A stretch of DNA of 64,000 bases. Source: Pseudomonadota bacterium. Its GTDB lineage: Bacteria; Desulfobacterota; Desulfobacteria; Desulfobacterales; Desulfolunaceae. The position numbers were made by a program, and so were the translations under genes. Numbering within the stretch: the first letter of the stretch is position 1; each line of letters starts with the position of its first letter. The stretch spans positions 1 to 64,000 of the forward strand of contig JAHIRD010000060.1 in assembly GCA_018818835.1 (NCBI GenBank). Direction: 5' to 3'. The notes beneath the pieces were generated by a model. The model did not search any database, was not told where the DNA came from, and was given only the letters and a program-made list of their open reading frames with translations. Shown here piece after piece: positions 3,070 through 24,112 of this stretch.

Positions 3070-3940
3070 GAGCGTCCTCCCACGGGGATTGGGCCAGGGG
3101 CTCATCGGCCATGTAAATATCCAATGGGGATTTGATTTTGGAAATACTTTCCCGGGTCACATGCAGGTAGATCATGGTCGTTGCGAGGTTCTTGTGACCG
3201 AGCATTCTCTGAATGCGGTGGATGTCGTATCCGGCTTCAAGCATGTGGGTGGCAAAACAATGTCGGAGCGTATGAATGCCATGCCCTCGGGTGATGCCTG
3301 TCCTTTTTTTAGTGCTGGAAAAGATTTTTTGGGCCGATGATTTTGAAAGGGGGTTTTCCGGGGTGGTGGAGTAAAACAACCAATCCTTGGGTTTGTATAT
3401 CCGCCAGTATTCCCGAAGTTCCTTCAATAGATTTTCAGATAAGGTGGTGTAGCGGTCTTTGTTGCCTTTTCCCTGAACCACCCGGATGACCATGCGTTTA
3501 CTGTCGATGTGTTCCAGCTTGAGAGAAACCAGTTCTTCAAGCCGCAGACCCGACGAATAGGCGGTCATCAGCAACAGGCGATCCCGGAAGCACTTGGTTC
3601 CGTTAATCAAGACCATGACTTCCTCGAAACTCAACACTTCCGGCAAGTGCTTGGGGGTTCGCTGTGCCGGAATGGCCATGGCGATTGTCTCGTCATTGAG
3701 AATATTCCTATAAAGAAACCGAATGGCACTGCGTGCTACATTGCAGCTGCTGAATGAAAGACCTATGCTTTCTTTCATGTAAATCAAGTAATCCTGAAGT
3801 TCTACATGACTGAGCTTGTCAGGGGACCGTTTATAATGCCGGGCAAGTTTATCAATGTGATAGAGATAGGCATCCTGAGTCTTGACTGAAAAGTTTCTTA
3901 CTTTCATGGGGCGGATCATGTCTTGTCTTAATACTGTCAT
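3050..3940 (-). CDS. Tyrosine recombinase of an IS91-type element
   Basis: 296-residue phage-type integrase: N-terminal SAM-like DNA-binding domain (about 1-90), then the catalytic domain with the first Arg (SSGLRLEELVSLK), the HTLRHCFATHML His-x-x-Arg box, LGHKNLATTMIYLH with the late His, and the Tyr nucleophile. Start ATG is five bases after AAAGGAG. Integrase plus IS91-type transposase in one overlapping pair is a recurrent arrangement in Proteobacteria, where the recombinase is carried as an accessory gene. It may assist resolution or be a passenger. Confidence 0.9.
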   Translation of the reverse strand: MTVLRQDMIRPMKVRNFSVKTQDAYLYHIDKLARHYKRSPDKLSHVELQDYLIYMKESIGLSFSSCNVARSAIRFLYRNILNDETIAMAIPAQRTPKHLPEVLSFEEVMVLINGTKCFRDRLLLMTAYSSGLRLEELVSLKLEHIDSKRMVIRVVQGKGNKDRYTTLSENLLKELREYWRIYKPKDWLFYSTTPENPLSKSSAQKIFSSTKKRTGITRGHGIHTLRHCFATHMLEAGYDIHRIQRMLGHKNLATTMIYLHVTRESISKIKSPLDIYMADEPLAQSPWEDAHDPIDE

Positions 3941-16651: not shown

Positions 16652-17659
16652 ATGACGGACAAACAAACCATTCTTGTCACAGGGGGCGGGGGTTTCCTGG
16701 GCTTTGCCATTGTGGACATGCTGGTAAAAAAAGGCCATGCTGTCACCAGCTTTTCCAGGGGACGCTATGCCAGCCTGGATGACCTGGGCGTGACCCAGAT
16801 CCAGGGAGATCTTTCCAGTGCCGAGGATGTTGACCAGGCTGTCCAAGGCATGGATACGGTCTTTCATGTGGCAGCCAAACCCGGTGTCTGGGGCTCCTAT
16901 GAGGACTATTACAACACCAACACCCTGGGAACACTGAATGTGGTCAATGCCTGCCTGAAACACAAGGTCCACCACCTGATCCACACCAGCTCCCCCAGTG
17001 TGGTGTTCACCGCAGGTGATATGGAAGGTGCCGATGAATCTGTTCCCTACACAAAGACCTTTCATACCCATTACATCAAAACCAAAAAACTGGCCGAGGA
17101 CATCGTTCTGAACGCTGTCCGTGAAAAAGGCCTGAAAGCCATCATTCTCAGGCCCCACCTGATCTGGGGTCCCAGGGACAACAACCTGGTTCCCCGGGTG
17201 ATTAAACGGCACAAACGCCTGGTGAAAGTGGGCAAACGGAACAATCTCGTGGATACCATTTACATTGACAATGCGGCCCATGCCCATGTCCTGGCCCACG
17301 AAAAACTGTCCCAGGATCCGTCCCTGTCCGGAAAGGTTTATTTTATCACCCAGGATGAGCCCATCCCCATGTGGGATATGATCAACGGAATTCTCACGGC
17401 AGCAGACCTGCCCCCCATCACCCGCACCCTTCCCCACCGTGTGGTCTGGTGTATCGGTGCCCTGCTTGAAGGCATCTATACCCTGTTCCGACTTCCGGGT
17501 GAACCCAAAATGACCCGCTTTGTGGCAGATGAACTGGCCACGGTCCACTGGTTTGATATCAGCGCCGTGAAAACAGATCTGGGGTATGCCCCCCTGGTGT
17601 CAACAGAACAAGGACTCAAGCGCCTGGCTTCCTGGCTCAAAGATAATCCTGTGACTTAA
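16652..17659 (+). CDS. oleD: OleD, NADPH-dependent 2-alkyl-3-ketoacid reductase
   Basis: 335-residue extended short-chain dehydrogenase. N-terminal nucleotide motif GGGGFLG (Gly11, Gly14, Gly17), catalytic Tyr141 and Lys145 (YIKTK). Reduces the OleA product to the 2-alkyl-3-hydroxyacid. AAGGA is six bases before the ATG and oleC ends nine bases upstream. It completes the oleA-B-C-D set; last gene of the operon, followed by palindromic repeats rather than a classical terminator. Confidence 0.9.
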   Translation: MTDKQTILVTGGGGFLGFAIVDMLVKKGHAVTSFSRGRYASLDDLGVTQIQGDLSSAEDVDQAVQGMDTVFHVAAKPGVWGSYEDYYNTNTLGTLNVVNACLKHKVHHLIHTSSPSVVFTAGDMEGADESVPYTKTFHTHYIKTKKLAEDIVLNAVREKGLKAIILRPHLIWGPRDNNLVPRVIKRHKRLVKVGKRNNLVDTIYIDNAAHAHVLAHEKLSQDPSLSGKVYFITQDEPIPMWDMINGILTAADLPPITRTLPHRVVWCIGALLEGIYTLFRLPGEPKMTRFVADELATVHWFDISAVKTDLGYAPLVSTEQGLKRLASWLKDNPVT

Positions 17660-18018: not shown

Positions 18019-18260
18019 ACTCTCGGAGAGCTGCCAGAGGCATTTTCTTCGTGCTCTTCAGGAAGCGAAGCGACCGGGTGGTGGATATAAAAAAACTGAG
18101 TGAACATTATTTTTCTTTATATCCTTCATGTAAATCTATTTTCCCACCACCCGCTCCCGGTGGTCGCTGAAGAACACGAAGAGCAAAGAGCGGCAAAGCC
18201 ACAACCAAAAACAGGTCTCTCACAGAGGCACAACGAATACACAAGTGAGATCATCACACG

Positions 18261-18422
18261 GTGTTTCAATGTCCGTGTCAGTCAGTGCTCGTCCGTGTCC
18301 GTCCACGAAGAAATAGCCTGGACAAACACGGACTGACAGGGACAAACACGGACATGTGCCACCTGCTCAACTTTTGATTTCTGTTTTTTAAATCATGCGA
18401 CAACTATCCTGACACAGGGGGA
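18261..18422. repeat. 162-bp direct repeat with long palindrome, left copy
   Basis: Matches 20545-20706 over 162 bp with three mismatches and no gaps. Inside, 18269-18305 and 18319-18355 form 37-nt inverted arms (ATGTCCGTGT at the outer ends, GTCCGTGT and GTCCA inside) around a 13-nt loop; most remaining mismatches are tolerable in a hairpin. The two copies bracket the abiE operon. Confidence 0.9.
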
Positions 18423-18616
18423 CCACGGAGACACGAAGAAGGGGGGGAAAGCCTCCGGCGGCAGGCTTCCTCACCTACGCGAGGACAAGCTTGAAATGTT
18501 GGGTCCGGTTTTAATTCCCTTCAAACAAGGGCACGGCGCGCCATGCCCCTACATTGTATGAATGTTTTCGCTCAATCGATTGACCCTGACTCTATCCTTA
18601 AAATCTCCATGCCCGG

Positions 18617-19489
18617 TCATATCAAAATATCAATTTCTTGAATCAAATAATCAGAAAAAAAATCATTAGACCAGAGGCTTAGCTCATCTCTTTGGCCTGA
18701 ATTTTTTAAAAACGGTTCAACATCTCTTTTGGCCAGGTCAAAATCAATCTCTTTTATTTTTTCGGACATTATTTCAACAAGCTTTTCTTTGGTCAAAGTC
18801 GAAGATAAATCAATATGGCCAGTTTGTACCATTTTATTATTAAGATAAAATAAGTCACACGGAATATTGTTTTTAACAAACCAAATTAAATCATACCAGT
18901 CCCGGCCCTTAATATTTGTCCTTCGGGTTCGACATAGCAAGGCATGCATTTTACCGGCAAACAGACTGGGCAAAGCCATGGTTTTAATGGTAAATGGGAT
19001 GGGGTGGAGATGATATTTAAATTCACTGTTAAATCCGGTTGCCGGATCTATATCAATTTCCAACTTGATCTTCATCACAGCATGTTTATGGGTTTTTAAA
19101 TTTAAATCTATTTTTAGCAAATGGACCAATCTATTTGCTTTGATAAACGCTGAATCAATTGTGCTTTGATTCTTTTTATTTTTTTCTTCTGTTGAAACTT
19201 CAAAACCCCATAATTCCAGTTCTGATTTAACGGCACCAAGATATTTTTTAATATTGAAATCGTTTTCCGGCTGAATTAATGAAAAATCCAAATCCTCGGA
19301 GAAACGATCCAGTTTATATAGAATCCGTAATGCACTCCCCCCGTAAAAAACAGCCTTTTCATAAAACTTAGAACGCCATAAACCAAGCAAAACAACTTCT
19401 TGTATGATCTCTTTCAGCGCATTCTCATGGTCATGAATCGAATTTAATTCATACCGCTTAAGCATTTGTTCGATTTTTTCATCAAACAT
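18617..19489 (-). CDS. abiEii: AbiEii-type nucleotidyltransferase toxin
   Basis: 290 residues. The nucleotidyltransferase signature GGSALRILYKLDRFSEDLDF gives Gly50-Gly51-Ser52 and the metal-binding Asp66 and Asp68. Further down, KGRDWYDLIWFVKN matches the conserved Asp-containing motif of AbiEii/COG2253 toxins. In characterised AbiE systems this protein is a nucleotidyltransferase toxin causing growth arrest and phage abortive infection. It overlaps the antitoxin gene by 8 nt. Confidence 0.88.
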   Translation of the reverse strand: MFDEKIEQMLKRYELNSIHDHENALKEIIQEVVLLGLWRSKFYEKAVFYGGSALRILYKLDRFSEDLDFSLIQPENDFNIKKYLGAVKSELELWGFEVSTEEKNKKNQSTIDSAFIKANRLVHLLKIDLNLKTHKHAVMKIKLEIDIDPATGFNSEFKYHLHPIPFTIKTMALPSLFAGKMHALLCRTRRTNIKGRDWYDLIWFVKNNIPCDLFYLNNKMVQTGHIDLSSTLTKEKLVEIMSEKIKEIDFDLAKRDVEPFLKNSGQRDELSLWSNDFFSDYLIQEIDILI

Positions 19490-20099
19490 AATCGTCCTTT
19501 AAGCAATGAATCATCAGCGTTATACTTTGTCTGCGATATCCAGCCTCAATTTCTTCCAATAATGAAAAATCAAGGGTCTTGTAAACGCTGAAATCCAATC
19601 GCATTAATTCGAGGAATTCCTTCATTTCATTTTTTGTTGAAATATACGTTTGTGACGCTGCAATATCGCATAATGACTTTTCCGGGGAAGCAATTAACAT
19701 TTTTTTTTGATCTCCGGCATCCTCAAGCTGAATTCCAATGCTGAACGCAGGCTTTGGGCAATACAGATATGAGAACGTGCCAACCGGAGTATCAAACTGC
19801 TTCTTTCTCTTTGTTGTCATGCTGATCATGAGTTCAACACGTTCAGGTATCATGTTCCAAAATGCCAAAGCGGTTTGACCTGTGATATATGACGGTCCAT
19901 AAATCAGATTCGCCAGGACAAACATGTTATAAGGTTTATTATAATCGTTGCCCAGCACATAAAGGCCCTTTTTAACCCTTATGATATCCTTGTCCCTAAT
20001 AAGACCTCTGATCTTATCCCTTGGCTTTTTGTAATCCTTTAACGCGTGTAACAACAAATTGTAATCAAATTCTGCGGGTAACTGAATTAAACTTTTCAT
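19482..20099 (-). CDS. abiEi: AbiEi-type antitoxin/autorepressor
   Basis: 205 residues: an N-terminal winged-helix region (KIRGLIRDKDIIRVKKGLYVLG, about 28-50) and a middle domain (YITGQTALAFWNMIPERVELM; SPEKSLCDIA) characteristic of AbiEi-like type IV antitoxins. Such proteins prevent toxicity without direct toxin binding and repress their own promoter through inverted repeats. A matching dyad lies just upstream (20104-20139). Confidence 0.87.
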   Translation of the reverse strand: MKSLIQLPAEFDYNLLLHALKDYKKPRDKIRGLIRDKDIIRVKKGLYVLGNDYNKPYNMFVLANLIYGPSYITGQTALAFWNMIPERVELMISMTTKRKKQFDTPVGTFSYLYCPKPAFSIGIQLEDAGDQKKMLIASPEKSLCDIAASQTYISTKNEMKEFLELMRLDFSVYKTLDFSLLEEIEAGYRRQSITLMIHCLKDDYV

Positions 20100-20103
20100 A
20101 TTT

Positions 20104-20169
20104 CAACCAATATGTCTAATTATTTGGACTTACTGGTTGTATTTTAGGTGATGTAAAATAAATAGTCAA
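20104..20169 (-). promoter_or_regulatory. abiE promoter and inverted-repeat operator
   Basis: Reading leftward, TTGACT (20169-20164) and TAAAAT (20146-20141) are separated by exactly 17 bp. Between the -10 and the abiEi start is an inverted repeat: CAACCAATATGTC (20104-20116) against GACTTACTGGTTG (20127-20139), 11 of 13 arm positions matching, 10-bp spacer. AbiEi of the family binds such repeats for autorepression. Confidence 0.68.
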
Positions 20170-20544
20170 GACTATTTTGGTTCTGGGGGGGGGGCACATA
20201 AGACGTATAAGAAGAACGATTCTTTATTTATCCAACCCGTCGCTCACTGAAGGACACGAAGATCACAGTGCGTCATAGCCACAACCAAAAAACAGGTCTC
20301 TCACGGAGGCACAAAGATCACGGAGTAAGATCTATCGTCGTGCCCGTGCTTGCATCTCGACAGCGGACATTTGACTCATCCCAAAATTCATGTTTGGCAA
20401 CCTTTTTAAAAGAGCCTGCCCCAGCGAAGGCTGGGGTTGGCCCCCGGCAGGGATAATTTTTTGCCCTTCTTCGTGTGTTTAAAACGTTTTTATATTTCAC
20501 TTCCAGGCAAAGTCTGGAAACTTAACAAAAACGGCTTGACCTCA

Positions 20545-20706
20545 GTGTTTCAATGTCCGTGTCAGTCAGTGCTCGTCCGTGTCCGTCCATGAAGAAATAC
20601 CCTGGACAAACACGGACTGACAGGGACAAACAAGGACATGTGCCACCTGCTCAACTTTTGATTTCTGTTTTTTAAATCATGCGACAACTATCCTGACACA
20701 GGGGGA
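20545..20706. repeat. 162-bp direct repeat with long palindrome, right copy
   Basis: Right-hand copy of 18261-18422; palindrome arms at 20553-20589 and 20603-20639. The repeat ends exactly where the reading frame of the hcp remnant begins. Outside the exact 162 bp, weaker similarity continues to the left (20240-20340 against 18165-18260). Confidence 0.9.
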
Positions 20707-21159
20707 AATGTTGTTGCGATTCTCAAGGCATTACTTAGTCAGCACCTTTCAAAAGGTGGCCTTCTTTCCAAAGTGGTGTTGAGATTTTTCAAAAAAGATC
20801 CCCAGGAAAAAGAGGTCAACGTTCATAGCATCCATCTTGAAAATGCCCTGATCATTGACATTTCTCCTGAAATGAAACTGTCTTTCCTCGAAGAAAACGA
20901 ACCCTTCGGACATATGGAATCTGTTTCCTTTTCATACAGCGGCATCCGCTGGGTGGATGAAATCCACTCAAGGGAAATGTTCAATTTGTGTATGAAATCG
21001 GGTTACTCTCGGCATGCTCCGCTTCCGCGGCAGGGCATATCGGATTATCCAAATCAAACATACAGAGCCTCTTATCAGAATTCTGGGAGCACAGAAGAAT
21101 TGAATCTTGTCATGGAGAAGTGTCAGGCCCGTGTTCCGGGTTCTGTGGCCCTTACTTAA
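20707..21159 (+). pseudogene. hcp: Truncated type VI secretion tube protein Hcp
   Basis: The frame is open from the repeat edge and reads VVAILKALLSQHLSKGGLLS, then KVVLRFFKKD, SIHLENALIIDISPEM and HMESVSFSYSGIRWVDEIHS. This matches the C-terminal two thirds of Hcp/TssD: the helix, the V-L-R-F-Y strand, the strand ending in I-x-x-I, and the final V-S-F-x-Y-x-x-I-x-W strand. The first part of the barrel is missing and no other T6SS gene is near. From about 20995 the frame continues into sequence unlike Hcp. A GTG at 20773 could start a shorter peptide, but it would lack the fold. Confidence 0.62.
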
Positions 21160-21374
21160 TGCCAAGACTGGACACCGGTATTTGCATTAAGTAAGGTCCC
21201 CGGAATTCAGAATTCGAATAAGTAAGGCTGTCGTCAAAAGCACATCCGCCCCGCTGGGGCTCTCCAAATGAGGAACTGTGATGAATTAAGTATCATGCCC
21301 CCCGATTCCGACGGTGTTGGGATTTATTGTGGGGCTTGACCCCTTTTCTTCAAAAAGACCATTATGGATGTAAA

Positions 21375-23378
21375 CTAATTCAGCTTGAATGTGTTGACCA
21401 TGTCGTTGAGTATCTCAGCCAGTTTGGACAACTCTAAGGCACTGGTGTTGATCTGAGAACTTCCCTGCCTGATTTCTTCAGAAGCACGGCTGACCTGCTG
21501 GATGTCCTTGCTGATCGAATTGGCAAATTCAGAGGCCTGGCTGACATTTTGGTTAACCTCAAGAACCCCGCTGTTTGCCTGGCTCACGTTGTTTGATATT
21601 TCGCGGGTGGTGATGGACTGCTCTTCTATGGCCGCGGCCACCTGAGTGACGATGCTGTTGATGTTGTCAATGATATCGACGATGCCGTTGATGGCATCAA
21701 CAGACTCTTTTGCTGTGCTCTGGACATCATCGATCCGGCTGCCGATGTCCTTTGTGGCTTCGGCGGTCTGTTGTGCCAGGGCTTTGATTTCACTGGCAAC
21801 CACGGCAAACCCCTTACCGGCTTCACCGGCACGCGCGGCTTCAATGGTTGCATTCAAGGCCAGAAGATTGGTTTGCGCGGAGATATCCGATATGGTTTCA
21901 GTGACCTTACTGATTTCCGATACGGCAACCCCCAAATCGTTGACCTTGGCTGAGACGTATTCGGCCTTTTTGACAGCTTCCGCAGTGGTTGCACTGCCTT
22001 TGCTTGTTTTGTCGGCAATTTCGTTGATGGTTGCCGACATTTCTTCGGCCGCGGATACGACCATTTGAAGGCTGGTTGTGGCTTGCTCCGACGCGGCAGC
22101 CACACTGTTCAGGCCTGCTGCCATTTCTCCGCTTGCTGAGGATACATTGGTGGATTTTTGGGCGGTGTCCTCGGCATTGATGGTCAGTTGATCGGACACG
22201 GATGACAACTCTGTGGAAGAAGAGCTGAGGGTGCGTGCCCCCTCGGTGATTTGGCGGAGCATGGCCTGGAGGCTTAGGGTCATGGTTCTCATGTGGGCAT
22301 AAACACCGGTGCTGCCCCGTCTGTTATCGCCAAATTCGATGGTGAGATCTCCTTTGGAAATCCGCTCGGCAATGTGGGCGATGTCCGATGGATCACCCCC
22401 GAGTTGGACCATGATTCCTCTCACAAACCATTGAACCACACCAAGGGTCAGGATCAGAAAAATGACGCTGGCAATCAAAATGATGTTGCGGATATGGCGG
22501 GAGGAACTTAATAATTCATCTTCGTCCTGGGTCACCCCGACGCCCCATCCGGTGATGAGCACAGGGGCAAAGCCGCATATTTTCCGGATGCCGTCAACCG
22601 TGTAGTCATCAACCCCTGTGTTGCCGCTGAGTATGGAGTGCAAAATACCTTGCATATTCTTGTTATTATTAAAATTTAATTCAAGAACAAGACGCTCGTC
22701 CGGATGGGCAGTGACGGTTCCTGAATTGTCCAGCATAAAGGGATAGCCGGTTTTTCCCAGCTTTGTTTTTGAAATAATTTTGGTCAGGATATCGAGTCTG
22801 ATGACAATGGAAACGACACCGACAAATTCATCAAAGGTATTTATGAGCGGGACGGCAATGACGGTGATGGGCTTGCCCGATATCTCGGATTTTACAGGCT
22901 CACTGATCACACACTCACTGCTTTCTTTGGCCCGCTTGAAATAAGCACTGTCAGCAACAGAAATGCCCGTTTCCCGGTACTTGCCTCCTTCACTGTCTGA
23001 AATCATTGTTCCCTCTTTATCCGTAAGGAAGAATAATTCGTATTGTCCCCCTATGTCCGTGTGAAGTTTTCCAAAGTGATTATCCAGAGACTTAAGAACC
23101 AGCATGGTCATTTTGACTCCCATTTCGCTTGCTCCCTCGGCCGCGTTAAGAAGAAGGGGATCGGAAGCGATGATGCGGGCCACTCTGACTTCCACATCAA
23201 GAGCCTCATGGATCAAGTCTCCGATATCGGACGCGATCAGCCTGGTTTTTTCTTTCTCAGCCGAGATCATGGCGCGGCTTGCCGTTGTAACGGAAAAAAA
23301 ACCCACTAATCCGAGGGGAACTACAACGATAAGGGTACACACAGTAAATAGCTTGGTTTTCAATGTCATTTTTTTCAT
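21375..23378 (-). CDS. Methyl-accepting chemotaxis protein
   Basis: 667 residues: transmembrane helix 1 (about 9-29), a periplasmic dCache-type sensor (about 35-275), transmembrane helix 2 (about 290-312), a HAMP linker, and a long cytoplasmic coiled coil whose tip has the conserved [20 protein letters not shown] motif and [17 protein letters not shown]. The ligand is not predictable. GAGGGG six bases before the ATG supports the start. A monocistronic gene, with no che genes nearby. Confidence 0.95.
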
Positions 23379-23489: not shown

Positions 23490-23873
23490 TTAAAACACCA
23501 CATCGACTCCGTATTCTTTAAATCGGGAATCTGATGTGACCACCGGCATATCGAGTGTCAAGGCTGTGGCAATAATAAATCGGTCACAGGGATCTTTATG
23601 GATTTTAGGGAGTTCGGTCGCCCGAAGGCAAATACTGTGGCTCAGGTCTATGTGCTGGAGATGATGAAAATTCAGCACGGCATCGAACCACTCTGCAGGT
23701 GTGACGGGAAGTTTCAGTTTACCGGCCTTCGCTTTTAAACCGATTTCAAAACCTGAAATGGCTGAGACATAGACAACAGGTGATTTGTTTATATGATTGA
23801 GCACTTGGGCCGATAACCGATTTTCCGATTCTCCTTCAGCGATCCATAATAATGCGCATGTGTCAAGTATCAT
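23490..23873 (-). CDS. PIN-domain toxin (VapC-like)
   Basis: 127-residue PIN ribonuclease. The acidic active-site residues are in place: Asp4 (MILDTC), Glu43 (SGFEIG), Asp97 (PCDRFIIATAL) and Asp115 (VVTSDSRF). It overlaps the preceding Phd-type antitoxin by 4 nt. PIN toxins of this group cleave tRNA or rRNA; the target here is unknown. Confidence 0.9.
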   Translation of the reverse strand: MILDTCALLWIAEGESENRLSAQVLNHINKSPVVYVSAISGFEIGLKAKAGKLKLPVTPAEWFDAVLNFHHLQHIDLSHSICLRATELPKIHKDPCDRFIIATALTLDMPVVTSDSRFKEYGVDVVF

Positions 23874-24112
23874 TCGATTTCACCCCATTCGTCTTCACTC
23901 AAATCTTCTGTTGGATCATAATTCATTTGGATCTTACTCATGACGGGGTGCTTACCCAAACGCGACCCCGCACCCTTCTTGACAGGTGACAGTTCGGCGA
24001 CAGGTGTGCCGTTGCGGCAGATTAAAACCGTGCTGCCGGTTTGCTCTATTTGAGCCAGGATTGCCGATAGCTTGGTTTTTGCTTCATGGATGTTCAGTTT
24101 TTGAATTGGCAT
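23870..24112 (-). CDS. Phd/YefM-type antitoxin of the PIN toxin
   Basis: 80 residues: NIHEAKTKLSAILAQIEQTG and VLICRNGTPVAELSP form the Phd/YefM DNA-binding half; the acidic tail (PTEDLSEDEWGEIE) is the probable toxin-binding segment. GGAGGG lies seven bases before the ATG. Confidence 0.9.
   Translation of the reverse strand: MPIQKLNIHEAKTKLSAILAQIEQTGSTVLICRNGTPVAELSPVKKGAGSRLGKHPVMSKIQMNYDPTEDLSEDEWGEIE

Follow-up and report, generated by a model that had tools for sequence, protein, structure and literature searches.

The abiE operon in the 64,000-nucleotide stretch of DNA analyzed here (the window) lies between two copies of a 162-bp repeat, repeat A, which probably derives from the left end of an IS3-family element as a MITE-like relic, scattered within a mosaic of other intergenic repeats. 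The two copies would then flank an acquired abiE operon by coincidence, having neither brought it to this site nor served as the ends of a unit that contains it. The analysis places repeat A in a dense mosaic of intergenic repeats with links to IS3-family ends and removes a tempting reading of the locus, that of a repeat-bounded mobile toxin-antitoxin module, which is unsupported.

The abiE Locus and Its Flanking Repeats

The locus is situated between a 3-beta-HSD-like gene (16652-17659) and a gene for a chemotaxis receptor (21375-23378). Its features, in the coordinates of the window, are as follows.

18156 to 18240, plus strand: module D, a dispersed intergenic repeat, left copy (at least 45 genome matches)
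18261 to 18422, plus strand: repeat A, copy 1 (A1), composed of PAL (18261-18361) and END (18361-18422)
18397 to 18421, minus strand: 25-bp IS3-family-type terminal inverted repeat (TIR) at the right edge of A1, an exact match to the shared TIR
18617 to 19489, minus strand: abiEii, encoding the nucleotidyltransferase toxin of the type IV toxin-antitoxin pair (Pfam PF08843, E 3.9e-28; PADLOC AbiEii, E 5.8e-103)
19482 to 20099, minus strand: abiEi, antitoxin (PADLOC AbiEi, E 3e-62; NCBIfam match below its cut-off)
20236 to 20317, plus strand: module D, right copy (84% identity to the left)
20338 to 20475, minus strand: spacer usually found beside module C (98.6%)
20475 to about 20544, minus strand: module C, by module match
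20545 to 20706, plus strand: repeat A, copy 2 (A2), by repeat search and genome matches
20681 to 20705, minus strand: 25-bp TIR at the right edge of A2, by TIR match
20707 to 21159, plus strand: hcp-like gene truncated at its 5' side, with an open frame that begins where A2 ends (the Pfam PF05638 match covers just profile positions 65-127 of 129)

A repeat search of the window recovered the pair of 162-bp direct repeats described in an earlier note on this DNA; they are 98% identical, with three mismatches, and their starts are separated by 2284 nt. The inverted arms of 37 nt around a 13-nt loop that the note ascribed to each repeat are likewise present, and in copy 1 the arms (18269-18305 and 18319-18355) are 76% complementary; the resulting 87-nt palindrome is thus imperfect, and its arms are built from a degenerate decamer, GTCCGTGTNN. 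When copy 1 was folded as single-strand DNA a z of −3.2 was obtained, with 1 of 200 dinucleotide shuffles folding equally well. In a covariation analysis of the hairpin, 93.6% of cells were paired; half of the 30 pairs (15) are invariant, however, and two-sided change occurs in only one, so that there is no evidence of selection on the pairing. An Rfam search returned only two sub-threshold matches to miRNA families. Further imperfect inverted repeats, with arms of 39 and 38 nt that are 76-77% complementary, lie beside the two repeat blocks at 18046-18182 and 21134-21212.

The identity of the enclosed genes as an abiEi/abiEii pair was borne out by PADLOC and, for abiEii, by Pfam. The two genes overlap by 8 nt, and this is the single abiEii in the host genome. 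Judged from its genes, with an AbiEii nucleotidyltransferase encoded beside AbiEi, the locus would be an AbiE type IV toxin-antitoxin system; it resembles known systems in its overlapping operon, its nucleotidyltransferase toxin and its patchy distribution, and the genes themselves are in no way unusual. The closest abiE loci, with 80-89% protein identity, are mostly in Desulfobacterota MAGs, including Desulfobacula. Where both genes are covered, DNA homology to these loci extends from about 18622-18633 to 20136-20178, a span that comprises the two genes only and stops short of both repeats. In the three relatives that were checked, abiE is not flanked by direct repeats of at least 30 nt, and a 16-mer check of 19 abiE loci, some with short flanks, found flanking direct repeats in one of them, L159. 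The best reading of these results is that the operon was acquired horizontally and lies in a repeat-rich intergenic mosaic.

The repeats of L159, which is from another MAG, are 211 nt long and 82% identical (463-673 and 3590-3800), and they enclose, besides abiEi and another small pair of genes, an AbiEii that is 89% identical to the present one; a tRNA-like sequence is present at the start of the locus. They adjoin sequence similar to a segment that lies next to a Y1 transposase match in the genome studied here. Since they are unrelated to repeat A, repeats beside abiE can arise independently and do not characterize the system in general. In the window, about 3 kb from abiE, a pair of open frames on the minus strand (23490-24112) encodes PIN-like and Phd-like proteins that, judged from their translations, are probably a VapBC-type toxin-antitoxin pair.

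Dispersal of Repeat A in an Intergenic Mosaic

The host genome (6.75 Mb in 334 contigs) was searched for repeat A, and all repeat copy counts given here are lower bounds. At least 11 copies were found, of which 8 extend over at least 153 of the 162 bases and 3 are truncated (C129, C232 and C245). Repeat A is therefore a short, non-coding sequence in multiple dispersed copies. The earlier note had held that many genomic copies unrelated to any gene cargo would make the bracketing of abiE accidental, and this is the situation encountered, as at least nine further copies lack abiE cargo; none of these is paired with another A or located near abiE. Among the matches listed, A1 and A2 are the only two copies that share a contig. 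This pair aside, the copies are on separate contigs and form no array of the kind seen for integron attC sites. A related palindrome, B, which lacks the last 62 bases of A, is present at 20 or more other sites, in some of them in tandem (C273 and C99). Beyond the host genome, a pattern scan of a genome-contig collection with the END segment gave no match, a search of phage sequences found none that matched, and in plasmids the IS-like end had two short matches, covering 20% of the query. Elsewhere in the host genome palindrome-like units of 108 and about 101 bp are arranged in tandem, and the arm repeat forms an expanded 20-nt array (L054, 3026-3337; L061, 15-354; L058, 3094-3274).

Two other modules accompany A and B. 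The 22-nt core of module D occurs in at least 92 places in the genome (control, 0), and module C, with at least 42 genome matches, is a unit in which GGTTTAACCACG follows a small hairpin (TTTCCAGGC...GCCTGGAAA). The order D(+)...C(−) is found at many intergenic sites, D-PAL-C(−) in several copies of B and C-PAL-END in several copies of A. At the abiE locus the left block is D-A1, and the right one runs from D through the spacer and C(−) to A2. Among five copies of A that bear module C, the PAL-END segment is 95.7-99.2% identical, whereas the adjacent 55 nt are 76-86% identical in 8 of the 10 pairs, so that A has spread independently of its flanks; comparison of these sequences indicates that its spread is recent relative to them.

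A Single IS3-family End

The final sequence of END, GCGACAACTATCCTGACACAGGGGG, is also present in many genomes of the order. At two loci (L067 and L068) OrfA and OrfB are encoded downstream of the same TIR, and each OrfB scores above the NCBIfam cut-off for the IS3 family. A strong hairpin is found just inside this TIR in L024-L026, which are at contig edges in the host genome, and in L073, L075-L077 and L082; read on the minus strand, repeat A has the same order of TIR, spacer and hairpin, which suggests that A is the 5' end of an insertion sequence without its genes or its other end. In L025 and L026 an OrfA-like sequence, MPYSEIFKRKM, can be read from the reverse complement beyond the hairpin. 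In L075, L077 and L082, which are IS3-type ends from this order, the hairpins are near-perfect, of about 19-28 bp within roughly the first 110 bases of the strand concerned, and they differ in sequence between genomes at a constant position.

At least 13 matches to the TIR were found in the host genome (control, 0), and 9 of the 13 listed belong to copies of A. In every copy that has that end, the TIR is at the right end only, and A is thus not two-ended. The tetranucleotide CACG flanks A1 as a target-site duplication would, but it is a common word in this sequence, and the left edge of A is uncertain. Against derivation from an IS3-family element, no transposase with this TIR was seen in the bin when it was searched with OrfB of L067, in a search run without a positive control. 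Since contigs break there, the body of the element may lie beyond the contig edges C47, C137 and C236 and be missing from the assembly.

The hcp-like gene begins at the IS-like end of A2, and its N-terminal half was not found within 16.5-21.5 kb. In three other loci (L028, L029 and L030) sequence resembling the tail of module D follows END immediately; L029 and L030 share both flanks and may represent one event. The absence of the expected intervening sequence in these loci and at the A2/hcp-like junction suggests deletions next to the IS-like end, and one-sided deletion beside the TIR may have extended into the hcp-like gene. In a related genome (L100), a stretch 61% identical to the hcp-like sequence lies inside an open frame of 550 amino acids.

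Origin of the Repeat Pair

In the mechanism that we favor, the 5' (left) end of an IS3-family element, comprising the 25-bp TIR, spacer and leader hairpin, would have been cut off at about the point where the transposase gene would begin, and the relic would have been scattered to at least 11 intergenic sites in the mosaic of modules C and D and palindrome B, presumably by an IS3-type transposase acting in trans. The abiE operon would have arrived, or persisted, in such a repeat-rich region, so that the pairing of A1 and A2 would be a matter of chance. Against this reading, uniform placement predicts only 0.019 same-strand pairs of A this close, and at three variable sites A1 and A2 have the same combination, one that is absent from every other copy. 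In addition, modules of this kind are confined in the 64-kb window to the vicinity of 4.2-4.4 kb and the two blocks around abiE. The dispersed repeats do cluster, however, with five close pairs of D where 1.4 are expected; the pair of A is therefore unusual by itself under the uniform model but unremarkable in a clustered mosaic. A further reading, in which A is a hairpin and single-TIR element that spreads in trans by one-ended transposition with an IS3-type transposase, is quite unlikely; if true, it would produce copies with a constant right end and a variable left end, along with deletions beside the TIR, and would be an unusual route for the multiplication of IS debris.

The earlier note had proposed that the repeats might be the end pair of a composite transposing unit. 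That A1 and A2 bounded a composite or MITE-based unit which carried abiE in as one piece fits their direct orientation, their 98% identity and the presence of just two genes between them, and the mobilization of cargo by MITEs, covered in a review of these elements (PMC10969869), also counts in its favor. It is nonetheless highly improbable, since homologues of abiE occur without the repeats, the homology ends before reaching them, and at least nine other copies of A have no such cargo. Because each A has one TIR and both copies are in direct orientation, the outer left edge of the pair lacks a transposase end; neither two complete IS copies nor ends that move with cargo were found. No matching short duplication was seen outside A1 and A2 on inspection of the sequence, and the D modules, whether within the interval or beyond it, belong to no such unit. 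The idea that the repeats carry or move the enclosed genes is thus not supported.

The three-site combination peculiar to A1 and A2, together with the order D then A in both blocks, would also be explained if the pair had arisen locally, by duplication or gene conversion around abiE, and now permitted loss of the operon by homologous recombination. Repeats of 162 bp with 98% identity are sufficient for RecA-type recombination, and loss of the module by deletion between A1 and A2, which the earlier note had also suggested, would be mechanically possible. We regard local origin as unlikely, in that identity between the left and right D copies is only 84%, that the left D is more closely related to copies elsewhere than to the right D, and that module C is present to the left of A2 but not of A1. 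Moreover, A1 differs from two remote copies at two positions and from A2 at three, all of them private to A2. Segmental duplication of the whole block as one recent event is not supported, on the basis of the divergence of D and the different make-up of the blocks; A alone may have been duplicated in this way.

Comparison with Known Systems

Repeat A is palindromic, intergenic, multicopy and partly tandem, and the genome has five Y1_Tnp matches, as might be expected if it were a palindrome of the REP/REPIN type mobilized by a RAYT (Y1) transposase. This origin is very unlikely, as neither GTCCGTG nor CACGGAC occurs in the examined flanks of any of the five Y1_Tnp loci and A terminates at its fixed end in an IS3-family TIR. 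Elements of the IS3 family with REP palindromes as their targets, such as IS1397, have been described (PMC1525189), as have the GTAG and CGTC palindromic repeats (PMC3733652). The REP/BIME/REPIN sequences with IS1397 are like A in being intergenic, multicopy palindromes tied to IS3-type sequence, but the palindrome of A is much longer and no association with a RAYT was found; also, the IS-like end of A lies beside the palindrome instead of interrupting it.

The relic of an IS3-family left end that we favor is like intact left ends with a leader hairpin in its order of TIR, spacer and hairpin but has no orfA, orfB or second end, and the sequence of its hairpin is unlike theirs. The suggestion that the repeats are MITE-like holds in part. 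Like MITEs, A is short, non-coding, dispersed and palindromic, adjoins other repeats and ends in the TIR of an insertion sequence of the IS3 family, but only one TIR was found and the left end varies between copies. Because it falls outside the definitions of both a two-ended MITE and a RAYT-linked REP, we describe it as MITE-like without classing it among the MITEs.
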